Shown here in pieces: positions 2,018 through 40,563 of a stretch of 45,106 bases of DNA. This DNA is from a virus. Under the pieces are notes generated by a model. That model saw nothing but the letters and a program-made list of their open reading frames with translations, was not told where the DNA came from and made no database searches. Position 1 is the stretch's first letter; every line of letters begins with the position of its first letter. The DNA is taken from the IMG/VR virus record IMGVR_UViG_3300023174_000277, positions 1-45,106 of that record; one strand, 5' to 3'. Made by a program: the position numbers and the translations under genes.

Positions 2018-4690
2018 ATGGCACAGTTTCCAATTTTCCACGGCATTTCAATGGCTGACAACAGCTGGATTGAGAATGTATATTTCGAACGTTTAACATC
2101 AGATCCAGTTCCAGTTCAACCAGGCCGTATATGGTATAACACCACACAAAAGGCATTAAAGTTTTCATCACTAGACGCTACCGGTGCAGTTGTTGTTTAT
2201 GCATTCACCGTTCCAGCTGATCTAGATCTAGTTCTAACAGATGCTAAGGATTACACCGACGCACAAATTACTGCTCTTATCAACAATGCTCCAGCCGTTC
2301 TAGATACTCTAAAGGAACTAGCTGATGCACTAGCAAGCGATCCAAACTTTGCAACAACCGTTGCAAACCAAATTGCTACTGCTAAGGCTCAAGTTGAAGC
2401 AGAAGTTAATGTTGTAGCTGCTGATCTAGCTGCTGAAGTTACCCGTGCTCAAGCTGCTGAAGCTGGTTTATCAACAGATATTACTACTGAAGTTACCCGT
2501 GCTCAAGCTGCTGAAGCTAGTCTTGATGCTCGTACTACAACACTAGAAGCATATTCAGTAACTGAAACTGCTGCACGTATTGCTGGTGATGCTACCAATG
2601 CTAGCGCTATTACTGCTGAAGTTACTCGTGCTACCGCTGCTGAAGCCACTTTAACATCATCAATTGCTGCTGAAGTTACCCGCGCTCAAGCTGCTGAAGC
2701 TACTCTAACATCAGATCTAGCAACAGAAACTGCTGCTCGTATTGCTGGTGATGCTACCAATGCAAATGCTATTACTGCAGAAGCTAACCGCGCAACTGCA
2801 GCAGAAGCTGCTATTGCCGCTGATTTAGCATCAGAAGTTACTCGTGCTACTGCAGCAGAAACAAGCTTAGGCAATGATATTTCAGCAGAAACAACACGTG
2901 CACAAACTGCAGAAACATCATTAAGCTCAGCAATTACTTCAGAGACATCACGTGCTCAAGCAGCTGAAGCTACATTAACATCATCAATCGCTGCTGAAGT
3001 TACCCGTGCTCAAGCTGCTGAAGCTACCCTAACATCAGACTTAGCTGCTGAAGTTACTGCACGTCAACAAGCTGTTTCAGCTGAAGCAACTGCTCGTGCT
3101 GCTGCTGATGCTGCTGAAACTTCAGCTCGTCAAGCCGCTGATGCTTCTTTATCATCAGATATTTCTGCTGAAACTGCTCGTGCTCAAGCTGCTGAAGCTA
3201 CATTAACATCAGATCTAGCATCAGAAGTTAGTCGTGCCCAAGCTGCTGAAGCAACATTAACATCAAACCTAGCTGCTGAAGTTACACGTGCTACTGGTGC
3301 TGAAGCAACATTAACAACAAACTTAGCTGCTGAAGTTACACGTGCCCAAGCTGCCGAAGCTACCCTAACATCAGATCTAGCAGCTGAAGTTATTCGTGCT
3401 ACTGCTGCAGAAGCTGCTCTAGATACACGTATCAATAATGTTCTATCAAATATTGATCCAGCTGCTATTGACAGTATTTCTGAAGTTCTTTCAGCATTCC
3501 AATCAGCAGATACAGACATTTATGCTGCAATTAACGCTCTAAGCACAAGTGCTACATCAGCTCTAGCAGCTGAAGTTACACGTGCTCAAGCGGCTGAAGC
3601 TAGCTTGTCAGCTGATATTACATCAGAAACAAATGCTCGTATTGCTGCTGTTTCAGCAGAAGAAGCTGCACGTATTGCTGGTGATGCTACTAATGCTAGC
3701 GCTATTACTGCAGAAACAACACGTGCTACTGCTGCTGAAACTAGCCTATCATCAGATATCACTGCTGAAGCAACTGCTCGTGCTGCCGCGGTTTCAGCCG
3801 AAGCAACTGCTCGTCAAGCTGCTGATACTGGTTTAGCTGCTGATATTGCTACAGAAACAACACGTGCTACTGCTGCAGAAGCAACTTTAACATCAGATCT
3901 AGCATCAGAAGTTACTCGTGCTACCGGTGCTGAAGCCACATTAACATCATCAATTTCTGCTGAAGTTACTCGTGCTACTGGTGCTGAAACAGCTCTAGAC
4001 GGCCGTGTTACAACAGTTGAAGCACAAGTTAATGGTAAGATTGGTGATCTAAACAGCTTAACCACAACTGTTAAGACAACCCTAGTTGCTGCTGTTAACG
4101 AAGTTGATGCTAACAATAAGGCTACACAAACAGCTCTAGACAATGAAGTTACACGTGCTACCGCTGCTGAAGCATCTGTACAAGCTGCTGCTGCTACCGA
4201 TGCAACAAACAAGGCTAATGCTGCTAAGGCTGAAGCTAAGACATATGCTGATGGTATCGTAACTGCTGAAACAAACCGTGCTACCGCTGCTGAAGCCCAA
4301 TTAACATCAGATCTAGCTGCTGAAGTTACACGTGCTACTGCTGCTGAAGCCCAATTAACATCAGACCTAGCTGCTGAAGTTACACGTGCTACTGGTGCTG
4401 AAGCTGGTCTAGCTTCTGATATTTCAACACTAAGAAGTGATGTTAATACTGCTTACAATGCTACAAATTATACATACCAAGCAGGTGTTGCTGCAACAAC
4501 CCACACAATTAACCATAATCTAGCTGCTGACTTTATTGTATTCACAGTTATGGTTGAGCGTGCTGATGGTACATATCATAATGATATCGTTGCTGTTGAA
4601 GAAATGGATAATAACTCCCTAAAGGTTTATCTAACTTCAGCATCAAAGATTAAGATTGCCGTCCACAAGATGTCAACTCTAGGTCTATAA
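2018..4690 (+). CDS. Long coiled-coil tail fibre protein
   Basis: 890 aa. The N-terminal about 75 residues are a compact domain ('GRIWYNTTQKALKFSS') common at the base of phage fibres. A conserved module 'APAVLDTLKELADALASDP' follows at about residues 91-111, and the 1146-aa fibre carries it three times. Residues about 130-815 are dominated by roughly 15-residue repeats such as 'AAEVTRAQAAEATLTSDL', with Ala/Val/Leu at heptad positions and no Pro, as expected of a trimeric parallel coiled-coil shaft. The last 70 residues form the shared beta domain. It likely recognises the host surface or forms a rigid fibre; receptor unknown. Strong translational codon preferences (AAG, CTA, TCA, GCT) match the capsid gene. 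Confidence 0.85.
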   Translation: MAQFPIFHGISMADNSWIENVYFERLTSDPVPVQPGRIWYNTTQKALKFSSLDATGAVVVYAFTVPADLDLVLTDAKDYTDAQITALINNAPAVLDTLKELADALASDPNFATTVANQIATAKAQVEAEVNVVAADLAAEVTRAQAAEAGLSTDITTEVTRAQAAEASLDARTTTLEAYSVTETAARIAGDATNASAITAEVTRATAAEATLTSSIAAEVTRAQAAEATLTSDLATETAARIAGDATNANAITAEANRATAAEAAIAADLASEVTRATAAETSLGNDISAETTRAQTAETSLSSAITSETSRAQAAEATLTSSIAAEVTRAQAAEATLTSDLAAEVTARQQAVSAEATARAAADAAETSARQAADASLSSDISAETARAQAAEATLTSDLASEVSRAQAAEATLTSNLAAEVTRATGAEATLTTNLAAEVTRAQAAEATLTSDLAAEVIRATAAEAALDTRINNVLSNIDPAAIDSISEVLSAFQSADTDIYAAINALSTSATSALAAEVTRAQAAEASLSADITSETNARIAAVSAEEAARIAGDATNASAITAETTRATAAETSLSSDITAEATARAAAVSAEATARQAADTGLAADIATETTRATAAEATLTSDLASEVTRATGAEATLTSSISAEVTRATGAETALDGRVTTVEAQVNGKIGDLNSLTTTVKTTLVAAVNEVDANNKATQTALDNEVTRATAAEASVQAAAATDATNKANAAKAEAKTYADGIVTAETNRATAAEAQLTSDLAAEVTRATAAEAQLTSDLAAEVTRATGAEAGLASDISTLRSDVNTAYNATNYTYQAGVAATTHTINHNLAADFIVFTVMVERADGTYHNDIVAVEEMDNNSLKVYLTSASKIKIAVHKMSTLGL
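2435..4425 (+). repeat. Degenerate tandem repeats coding the fibre shaft
   Basis: About 45-bp units around 'GAAGTTACCCGTGCTCAAGC' and 'GAAGCTACTCTAACATCAGA' recur dozens of times with silent changes. They code the coiled-coil shaft. Such repeats allow length change by slipped recombination. Confidence 0.85.
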
Positions 4691-4983: not shown

Positions 4984-5198
4984 TGCAACATAGACATTAT
5001 AACAAATATATTCATGGTTGGCTAGAAAAGATCGAAACTAATATCCAAACATATAAAGATAATAGTTCAAATTTGAGCAGTGAACAAAGAACAGAATTTA
5101 TTACGCACCAATATGAATTAATCATGTTGATACACAAAGCATTAAATAATAGAGTATTGTTTGCTGGTGCAAAAATGATTCCATCGCAACAATCTTAA
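4980..5198 (+). CDS. Hypothetical small helical protein
   Basis: 72 aa, ATG overlapping the stop of the previous gene (ATGTGATG). Predicted helical throughout ('YNKYIHGWLEKIETNIQTYK', 'ELIMLIHKALNNRVLF') and weakly similar in plan to its neighbour: both are about 70 aa, with two helices and no Pro-rich linker. Possibly a duplicated pair of fibre-assembly helpers. No family recognised. Confidence 0.55.
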   Translation: MMQHRHYNKYIHGWLEKIETNIQTYKDNSSNLSSEQRTEFITHQYELIMLIHKALNNRVLFAGAKMIPSQQS

Positions 5199-37606: not shown

Positions 37607-37989
37607 AAGTTTTTGAGTTTATTAATGCAATTAATGATACTAAGGTTGACTTATTTGCTGACCCTCAAGCAAAAAAGGATTATAATGCATTTATTGTAAA
37701 TCGTGGCTTGTCGTATTTTCCAGATACAATTTTCTACTCTAATGAGATGAATAAATTTAATCAATTAGATGTAGATATGCAATTTGATTTTTTATTAAAC
37801 TCTATACCTAAAAAGAAGCGTTTTAGTAAATGGAATAAAAAAGAAACTTCCACTGAAGATCTTTTTCTAATTATGCAAATGTATAAATACAATTATGCAA
37901 AAGCTTTGGACGCGTTGCGCATATTAAATGCTGAGCAGCTTTCAATAATTAGAAAAAGATTTACTAAAGGTGGAAAGAATGACGATTGA
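37603..37989 (+). CDS. 62: Clamp loader small subunit gp62
   Basis: 128 aa (T4 187, so a short version). 'FEFINAINDTKVDLFADPQAKKDYNAFIVNRGLSYFPDTIFYSNEMN' and 'LDVDMQFDFLLNSIPKKKRFSKW' match gp62 of T4-like phages, and the short form is usual in aquatic relatives. Single non-ATPase subunit of the clamp loader. Overlaps regA. Confidence 0.9.
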   Translation: MKVFEFINAINDTKVDLFADPQAKKDYNAFIVNRGLSYFPDTIFYSNEMNKFNQLDVDMQFDFLLNSIPKKKRFSKWNKKETSTEDLFLIMQMYKYNYAKALDALRILNAEQLSIIRKRFTKGGKNDD

Positions 37990-38401
37990 ACCAATTTACT
38001 ATGACTGGACTCCTGCATCAATGCTTGAAGTTTCTTTACCTGAACCTGATAATTTTCTAAAGGTTCGCGAGACATTAACTCGTATTGGTATTGCTTCACG
38101 CAAGGATAAAAAATTATACCAATCTTGCCATATTTTACATAAACAAGGTCGGTATTTTATAGTTCATTTTAAAGAACTATTTGCTTTAGACGGTAAAGAA
38201 AGTGATATTACTCAATCAGATATTGAACGTAGAAATGCAATTGCAGTTTTACTTCAAGATTGGGATTTATTGAAGATTATTTCTCCAATTTCATCGGATC
38301 CATCTTCAATGCTTTCTCAAATTAAGATTGTCTCCTATAAGGAGAAGATGGAATGGGAACTTATCCCAAAGTATAATATTGGTCAAAATCGTAAAAAATA
38401 A
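37979..38401 (+). CDS. regA: Translational repressor RegA
   Basis: 140 aa from ATG 37979 (GTG 37970 lies in the ribosome site; T4 RegA is 122 aa). The stretch 'DNFLKVRETLTRIGIASRKDKKLYQSCHILHKQGRYFIVHFKELFALDG' aligns closely with T4 RegA, as does 'KIVSYKEKMEWELIPKYNIG'. It binds start regions of early mRNAs and blocks their translation. The extra N-terminal about 12 residues are not in T4. In T4 gene 43 follows; here about 6 kb of other genes intervene. Confidence 0.93.
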   Translation: MTIEPIYYDWTPASMLEVSLPEPDNFLKVRETLTRIGIASRKDKKLYQSCHILHKQGRYFIVHFKELFALDGKESDITQSDIERRNAIAVLLQDWDLLKIISPISSDPSSMLSQIKIVSYKEKMEWELIPKYNIGQNRKK

Positions 38402-38599: not shown

Positions 38600-38705
38600 T
38601 ATAATACACATACTACCTTTGTTTAATACTTTTAATTAAACAAATTATAATCTTTTATTGATAAGTAGTTATGGGAATCTTCCCAATATCATTTAGGAGA
38701 TTAAT
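38600..38705 (+). promoter_or_regulatory. Leader region of pqqA with promoter-like box and hairpins
   Basis: Contains TATAAT at 38600-38605 and again at 38646-38651, a 7-bp inverted repeat GTTTAAT/ATTAAAC (38621-38627, 38635-38641), and a compact hairpin TGGGAA/TTCCCA (38672-38685), then AGGAGA (38695-38700) 5 nt before the pqqA ATG. No good -35 at 16 nt is seen. The hairpin could stabilise the short mRNA or regulate it. Confidence 0.4.
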
Positions 38706-38777
38706 ATGTGGACTAAGCCAATTGCACAAGATATGCGTTTCGGTTTTGAAGTTACCGCTTACATCGCTGCACGTTAA
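38706..38777 (+). CDS. pqqA: PqqA-type precursor peptide for pyrroloquinoline quinone
   Basis: A 23-residue gene from ATG 38706 to TAA 38777 with a strong AGGAGA site. It has the PqqA signature in full: Met1-Trp2-x-Lys4-Pro5, Asp9-x-Arg11-x-Gly13-Phe14-Glu15-Val16-Thr17-x-Tyr19 and a terminal Arg23. Glu15 and Tyr19, spaced E-x3-Y, are the residues that PqqE/PqqD and later enzymes crosslink and excise to make PQQ. No pqqB-E genes are in this window, so host enzymes would process it. PQQ serves periplasmic methanol and other alcohol/sugar dehydrogenases. It lies in an accessory island with redox and stress genes. A phage-borne pqqA reads as an auxiliary metabolic gene; the role in infection is inferred. 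Confidence 0.9.
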   Translation: MWTKPIAQDMRFGFEVTAYIAAR

Positions 38778-38798: not shown

Positions 38799-38835
38799 CC
38801 AAGACCTCTGCGAAAGTACGTCTTGGCTTTCTTTT
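38799..38835 (+). terminator. Hairpin with T-run between pqqA and rubrerythrin
   Basis: CCAAGAC (38799-38805) pairs with GTCTTGG (38820-38826), 14-nt loop, followed by CTTTCTTTT. Also preceded by TATAAT at 38785-38790, so it could instead be a short RNA whose 5' end begins at about 38797. Terminates the pqqA transcript or forms a 5' structure of the rubrerythrin mRNA. Confidence 0.6.
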
Positions 38836-38851
38836 GAAATGAGGATATAAA

Positions 38852-39286
38852 ATGAATCTAAAAGGTACAAAAACAGCAGAATGCTTGAAAGAAGCTTTTG
38901 CCGGTGAATCAATGGCCAATCGCCGTTATCTCTATTTTGCAAATATGGCTGATATTGAAGGCGCACCTGAAGTAGCCTCGGTGTTTCGTAATACAGCAGA
39001 AGGCGAAACTGGCCATGCACATGGTCATATGGAATATTTGCTAAAGGGCGGTGCTGGTGATCCTGGCACTGGGGAACCGGTTAATTCAGTAGAAGAAGCT
39101 TTGCATTCTGCTATTGAAGGTGAAACGCATGAATATACAGATATGTATCCAGGCATGGCAAAGACTGCACGAGATGAAGGTTTTGATGAAATTGCCGATT
39201 GGTTTGAAACTCTAGCCAAGGCTGAACGGTCTCATGCTGGTAAGTTTAAGCGAACATTAGAAGCATATCAAGCCGATAAAAATTAA
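38852..39286 (+). CDS. Rubrerythrin (erythrin-type, no rubredoxin domain)
   Basis: 144 aa, a four-helix diiron protein. Metal ligands are visible: Glu19 ('AGES'), Glu52/His55 ('EGETGH'), Glu91 with Glu94 ('EGETHEYT') and Glu125/His128 ('KAERSH'). The C-terminal rubredoxin Cys4 domain of classic rubrerythrin is absent. Family members reduce hydrogen peroxide in the cytoplasm and need an electron donor; a small Bfd-like [2Fe-2S] gene 0.6 kb downstream could be that donor (inference). Good SD (GAGGA). Likely acquired from a bacterial host. Confidence 0.92.
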
Positions 39287-40034: not shown

Positions 40035-40166
40035 ATGAAAGTTAAAGAACTAATTAAAAATCTTTATATTGCAATTCGTGAAGGCAATAAGGAATTGCAA
40101 AAGAAGCTTTATGAGCAAATTACAAAAAAGAGTTTAAAGAAGAAGAAAACTCAAGCTGTTCAATAA
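40035..40166 (+). CDS. Small basic helical protein
   Basis: 43 aa, ATG 40035, with weak AAAGG 12 nt upstream. Lys-rich (14 of 43) amphipathic helix 'LIKNLYIAIREGNKELQKKLYEQI' followed by a basic tail 'KKSLKKKKTQ'. Nucleic-acid or ribosome association would be possible. It ends just upstream of the tmRNA acceptor piece. Coding status moderately supported. Confidence 0.45.
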   Translation: MKVKELIKNLYIAIREGNKELQKKLYEQITKKSLKKKKTQAVQ

Positions 40167-40183
40167 GATAAATATTAGTATTG

Positions 40184-40428
40184 CTGTATGAAGTAGAAGG
40201 AAAGGTGTTCTGGACGCGGGTTCGATTCCCGCCATCTCCAAAACAGGGGGGGATGTCAAGGTTTCGACAGGGCAATGAGTACAGATATGGACAGCCCGTC
40301 AGGCGATCGACGTAAATGAAGCAAAACTAGTAAATGCAAATGATAGCAATTACACCTTGGCTCTTGCTGCTTAAACAGTAAGAATACGGAGTTTTGGTAC
40401 TTTTTCTTGGCAACAGAAAAAAGTACCA
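40184..40428 (+). ncRNA. ssrA: Circularly permuted (two-piece) tmRNA
   Basis: The 3' (acceptor) piece precedes the 5' (coding) piece. Acceptor piece: P2 strand CTGTAT (40184-40189), 'TGGAC', T-stem GCGGG/CCCGC with loop TTCGATT (40216-40232), then CATCTCC (40233-40239) and discriminator A 40240; CCA is not encoded. An 8-nt linker (40241-40248) leads to the coding piece: GGGGATG (40249-40255) pairs with CATCTCC, keeping the G3-U pair that alanyl-tRNA synthetase recognises. Then 'GGTTTCGACAGGG', P2 strand GTACAG (40279-40284), and a tag frame from GCA 40336 to TAA 40372-40374 coding ANDSNYTLALAA. A hairpin TGGTAC.../...GTACCA (40395-40428) ends it. It rescues stalled ribosomes and tags products for ClpXP-type proteolysis. 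Outer ends are approximate. Confidence 0.92.
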
Positions 40429-40449
40429 CACTAACTTAGGAGAATAATT

Positions 40450-40563
40450 ATGTTTGATGCAATTTTTTGGTTTATAGTTGGTGCATTAGTTGGTTGGAAT
40501 TTACCACAACCAGTTTGGGCTAAAGATTTAGTAGAAAAAGTTAAGTCAGTATTAGTAAAGTAA
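40450..40563 (+). CDS. Very small membrane protein
   Basis: 37 aa, ATG 40450 with AGGAG 10 nt upstream. 'AIFWFIVGALVGWNLPQPVWA' is a single membrane span with a Gly-x3-Gly packing motif; the short C-terminus is basic ('KDLVEKVKSVLVK'). Ends directly at a late promoter and hairpin. Unknown function. Confidence 0.6.
   Translation: MFDAIFWFIVGALVGWNLPQPVWAKDLVEKVKSVLVK

Follow-up and report, generated by a model that had tools for sequence, protein, structure and literature searches.

The window analysed here, meaning the whole stretch of DNA, is a 45.1 kb virus record from a T4-like phage that carries genes for gp23, gp44, and HSP20. At positions 38706..38777 on the + strand it contains pqqA, a 72-nt gene whose translation is the 23-residue PQQ precursor peptide MWTKPIAQDMRFGFEVTAYIAAR. 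Its ribosome-binding site, AGGAG, can be read directly at 38695..38699 (+), 6 nt 5' of the ATG. On its 3' side a hairpin (CCAAGAC...GTCTTGG) with a T-rich tail at 38799..38835 (+) is a likely intrinsic terminator, with a fold z-score of -2.87 and equal stability in only 2/200 shuffles. The upstream neighbour is the T4-like translational repressor gene regA (37970..38401, +; Pfam PF01818, E 2.4e-47; phrog_242), and the downstream neighbour is a rubrerythrin gene (38852..39286, +; Pfam PF02915, E 3.8e-26), which is a separate gene outside PQQ synthesis. The T4 late-promoter box TATAAATA was not enriched in the window, as its count was reached by 11/100 shuffles, and none was found directly 5' of pqqA.

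Further downstream, the window encodes a permuted (two-piece) tmRNA (40120-40465, +; Rfam RF04321) with the tag ANDSNYTLALAA, and this region also scores with the betaproteobacterial tmRNA model. The closest gp23 to that of the window belongs to Melnitz, which infects the marine methylotroph clade OM43 (63.5% identical). The likeliest host is a PQQ-making betaproteobacterium, most likely a methylotroph. Neither a methanol dehydrogenase nor any other dehydrogenase was recognised in the window. Rubrerythrin is rare in phage records (eight with a match); Pelagibacter phage Mosig, a T4-like SAR11 phage, carries one at 2998-3423 that is 72% identical to the window's, while no PqqA frame was found in that record.

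The peptide was matched over their full lengths by two PqqA profiles, Pfam PF08042 (E 9.6e-10, 38.6 bits against a curated cut-off of 21.1 bits, profile positions 1-19 of 19) and NCBIfam TIGR02107 (E 2.5e-9, 36.7 bits against a curated cut-off of 20 bits, profile positions 1-21 of 21). It keeps Trp2, Lys4-Pro5, Gly13-Phe14-Glu15-Val16-Thr17, and Tyr19, and departs from the usual residues only in having Ala18 instead of Met. The window contains one match to a strict PqqA DNA pattern, while 100 dinucleotide-preserving shuffles gave none. No PHROG matched the gene in the PHROG comparison, which is consistent with gene callers missing genes this short. The window variant is identical to none of the Methylophilaceae peptides that were fetched. 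With a full-length profile match, the Glu-x-x-x-Tyr spacing, and a small gene of about 23-24 codons with its own ribosome-binding site, 38706-38777 is confirmed at the level of sequence as a genuine PqqA gene, and the best explanation is that it would encode a functional PqqA precursor. The original prediction, which had described a 72-nt PqqA gene with a strong ribosome site, was exact in its coordinates, frame, and 23-residue peptide; the strong site is the AGGAG, every residue it had named as part of a complete PqqA pattern is present, and the profile search it had proposed returned two matches above cut-off.

Relatives were sought in IMG/VR with degenerate DNA patterns, and at least 120 loci were found. 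All of the 119 loci that were read start with ATG and are 23-25 codons long. When IMG/VR loci, phage records, and the window are taken together, a ribosome-binding site precedes 126 of 127 viral pqqA genes, whereas 12% of ATGs picked at random from this DNA have one. Proteins in common with cultured methylophages or the window are present at 95 of the 120 IMG/VR loci listed, and PHROG matches, among them portal, primase, and exonuclease, were obtained for most of the remaining loci tested. There is a second viral PqqA peptide type, and the one protein from its contigs that was tested matched cyanophages weakly. Radical SAM genes were seen in four viral contigs, and three large viral records with pqqA (L046, L069, and L077; 356, 166, and 148 kb) have 9-10 radical SAM matches each.

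A link to methanol dehydrogenase within viral contigs was considered and dropped. A dehydrogenase was present in only 1 of 48 viral records tested, and that single match lies on a probable host contig (L065/L343, IMGVR_UViG_3300025120_009955). This 72 kb record encodes a XoxF 87.5% identical to that of OM43, a formate dehydrogenase-like subunit, SoxYZ, and curli genes; it is probably host chromosome misclassified as virus and was left out of the evidence.

Glu15 and Tyr19 are the residues of PqqA that are turned into PQQ. Substitutions at these two positions in relatives, which the original prediction had named as counting against it, were sought with the same IMG/VR pattern, in which position 15 was set to every codon class except Glu, or position 19 to every class except Tyr, and no genuine one was found for any alternative codon class. 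Two non-Glu15 matches were rejected as one unrelated sequence seen twice that has no start codon, and the single non-Tyr19 match appears to be an assembly join after GFEVT. By comparison, positions 6 to 10 and 12 of the viral peptides are variable. For the codons that the search pattern left free, dN/dS was ~0.21 for all sequences and ~0.13 for the main group, values that are rough as synonymous sites are near-saturated. Mutants of PqqA with Glu changed to Asp or Tyr changed to Phe abolish PQQ production (PMC2294125).

The frame recurs in relatives of the window, whereas its absence there was an outcome that the original prediction had named as counting against it, and gene order, which it had proposed to compare, is conserved in part. 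Of the 80 nearest IMG/VR relatives of regA, 17, all from the closer part of the set, are followed on the same strand by pqqA at a distance of 106-660 nt. The fetched flanks of 26 of the 80 nearest rubrerythrin relatives include pqqA, which in 16 of these 26 lies directly upstream of rubrerythrin (start to start ≤195 nt). One locus, L355, has the exact window order regA-pqqA-rubrerythrin and a near-identical peptide, MWTKPIAQDMRYGFEVTAYISVR. The pqqA gene is antisense to both neighbours in 42 of 104 viral loci, and a terminator-like hairpin lies just 3' of 49 of 124 viral genes, compared with 0-4 at random places. From this antisense placement and the downstream terminators, pqqA appears in many cases to be transcribed as a separate unit.

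When 50,697 phage records were searched with three divergent PqqA queries, each query gave the same 12 records. Nine of these are phages of Methylophilales/Methylophilaceae (Melnitz ×4, Venkman, MEP301, MEP401, MEP402, and P19250A), and the remaining three are an environmental podovirus and two 'Acinetobacter phage' contigs. The Acinetobacter matches were rejected as misfiled chromosome, since the region inspected carries pqqABCDE and ppk; 'Acinetobacter phage MD-2021a' (CAKLQF020000010.1) is such a bacterial contig, with chromosomal ppk and pqqABCDE, in a phage collection. The opposite kind of misfiling probably affects CAIYXB010000030.1, a contig assigned to a bacterial MAG: several of its proteins match those of P19250A-like viral contigs at up to 97% identity, and it is probably a phage contig binned with a host. 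The PqqA frame is unnamed in the phage records that were inspected, being either unannotated or beneath an antisense hypothetical ORF. In Melnitz EXVC044M, pqqA lies at 5001-5066 beneath the annotated antisense ORF MelnitzEXVC044M_152, which is probably spurious.

The isolates that carry pqqA belong to largely unrelated lineages, with few or no proteins in common between lineages. As a control, no PqqA match came from any of >2,500 further phage records that have a gp23 relative, Melnitz excepted, and so pqqA follows the host rather than the type of phage.

The enzymes that act on PqqA are found with the likely hosts. No methylophage record matched PqqC or PqqE, none of pqqB-E was found beside pqqA at any viral locus, and phage records, the misfiled Acinetobacter contigs aside, match PqqE weakly (<30% identity among the matches listed). 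Conversely, 29 bacterial genomes with this PqqA type, nearly all of them Methylophilaceae, encode PqqC in 26 cases and full PqqE in 27, and each has 1-12 copies of pqqA. Multiple pqqA copies alongside a single pqqB-E set have been described for Methylophilaceae (PMC4109929). These results support the expectation, made from the window alone, that the phage would rely on host enzymes.

Phage PqqA frequently matches host PqqA residue for residue: MWTTPAATEMRFGFEVTMYVMNK is the most frequent peptide in both groups, and at the DNA level five 54-nt cores occur unchanged in viral and host loci alike. Judged from these shared sequences, the simplest origin of the viral gene would be transfer from Methylophilaceae-like hosts. 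In origin and location, viral pqqA fits the description of an auxiliary metabolic gene, being of bacterial origin, located in a phage genome (here in T4-like surroundings), and outside replication and structure.

I consider it probable that the phage contributes the PQQ precursor alone, which is consumed stoichiometrically, and relies on host enzymes for the rest. The gene, its conservation, its solitary state, and the host enzymes in the likely host families are observed. Expression, processing, a limiting supply, and a benefit to the phage would complete the picture as follows. The phage would make PqqA while infecting a PQQ-making betaproteobacterium, most likely a methylotroph; PqqE and PqqD of the host would cross-link Glu15 to Tyr19 of the phage peptide, and a host protease, PqqB, and PqqC would complete PQQ. 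One PqqA is destroyed per cofactor while the enzymes, being catalytic, persist, and PqqA supply would then be the first to fail once the phage shuts down host expression. As PqqA is used 1:1 and PqqB-E are catalysts, a phage that halts host expression would need to replace PqqA only. Methanol dehydrogenase and the other enzymes that use PQQ would thereby continue to receive their cofactor, and a phage that carries the consumable part alone would parallel its hosts, with their several stand-alone pqqA copies and one enzyme set.

PQQ is bound in stable enzymes, which speaks against this best explanation to the extent that additional cofactor might be of use only during synthesis of new dehydrogenase. 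When Acetobacter was engineered with pqqAB alone, PQQ rose by 29%, compared with eightfold for pqqABCDE (PMC7936290), and hence PqqA supply can matter without always being the bottleneck.

Other readings of the same data were weighed. A neutral pqqA, acquired from hosts with many dispersed copies and carried without being used, is quite unlikely: the shared commonest peptide and the five identical 54-nt cores do imply that transfer happens, but an unused gene sits poorly with the low dN/dS at codons unfixed by the search, the near-universal ribosome-binding site, the strict Glu15 and Tyr19, the spread over largely unrelated lineages, and the position kept beside regA or rubrerythrin. Unlikely as well is a peptide that acts as decoy or regulator, tying up PqqD/PqqE or serving some other peptide function and thereby lowering or redirecting host PQQ. 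Saturating PqqD would suffice for this, and as no enzyme accompanies the gene, the direction of the effect is not readable from sequence alone; yet a decoy need not retain the cross-linked pair, at which no substitution was found, and exact matches between phage peptides and host PqqA are frequent.

That the viral matches are host DNA mistaken for virus is very improbable overall, and for the window and the isolates the present data refute it. Such errors do occur, as with the probable host chromosome L065/L343 and the Acinetobacter 'phage' contigs with chromosomal pqqABCDE, but pqqA in the window is surrounded by gp23, regA, and gp44, cultured phages have it in their complete genomes, most IMG/VR loci encode proteins shared with those phages or the window, and PHROG matches cover most of the others tested.

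Supply of the precursor by the phage is thus preferred, and the presence of the same gene in unrelated methylophage lineages suggests that these viruses feed host PQQ synthesis with its one consumable part. A broader claim, that methylotroph phages took up pqqA alone repeatedly and independently, is held with somewhat less assurance but is still favoured; pqqA would then be a general, overlooked strategy, present in all nine methylophage records found, and a marker of host type.

The closest known counterparts are bacterial PqqA peptides, especially the stand-alone copies of Methylophilaceae (PMC4109929), which have the same length, whole-profile match, and Glu-x-x-x-Tyr as the window's. In these hosts, too, pqqA away from pqqB-E is normal, and exact host counterparts exist for several phage peptides; the window peptide differs in being phage-borne and in its Ala18 and IAAR end. 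Among phages, the Lake Baikal population VP_266 was reported with PqqA and methanol dehydrogenase, and its PqqA was read as an auxiliary metabolic gene (Coutinho 2020, PMC7678222). Its predicted host is a member of Methylophilaceae and, like the window, it is T4-like and has a PqqA gene, but it is one population in which PqqA occurs together with methanol dehydrogenase, and prevalence in isolates was not noted there. In the original prediction PqqA is not known as a standard phage auxiliary metabolic gene; a phage PqqA had been reported before, in VP_266.

Melnitz, the T4-like OM43 phage, resembles the window in its gp23, its unannotated pqqA, and its HSP20, and a split (two-piece) tmRNA has been reported for it (PMC9004378); it differs in that pqqA is elsewhere, before a tRNA-Leu gene and beneath the spurious antisense ORF. 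PqqA is unmentioned in the papers on Melnitz (PMC9004378), MEP301, and MEP401/402. Although a 2026 list of viral genes includes pqqA (PMC13188868), no report of it in cultured methylophages, or as a stand-alone widespread gene, was found in the open-access journal papers searched. A PqqA-bearing methylotroph phage has therefore been known since 2020, and what appears to be new is how widespread, stand-alone, and overlooked the gene is, including in published isolates.

Cyanophage psbA likewise supplies only the fast-consumed part of a host machine, but it encodes a protein subunit that turns over, whereas each PqqA is spent as the substrate for a single cofactor. If the proposed role is true, a virus supplies the substrate peptide of a ribosomally made cofactor and not an enzyme. 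As the gene sits unnamed in published isolate genomes, the idea is testable with phages and hosts already cultured, and the gene will escape surveys in which very short genes are discarded. OM43- and Methylopumilus-type methylotrophs are abundant methanol consumers in seas and lakes, and if viruses routinely sustain PQQ synthesis in them, methanol oxidation may differ between infected and healthy cells.
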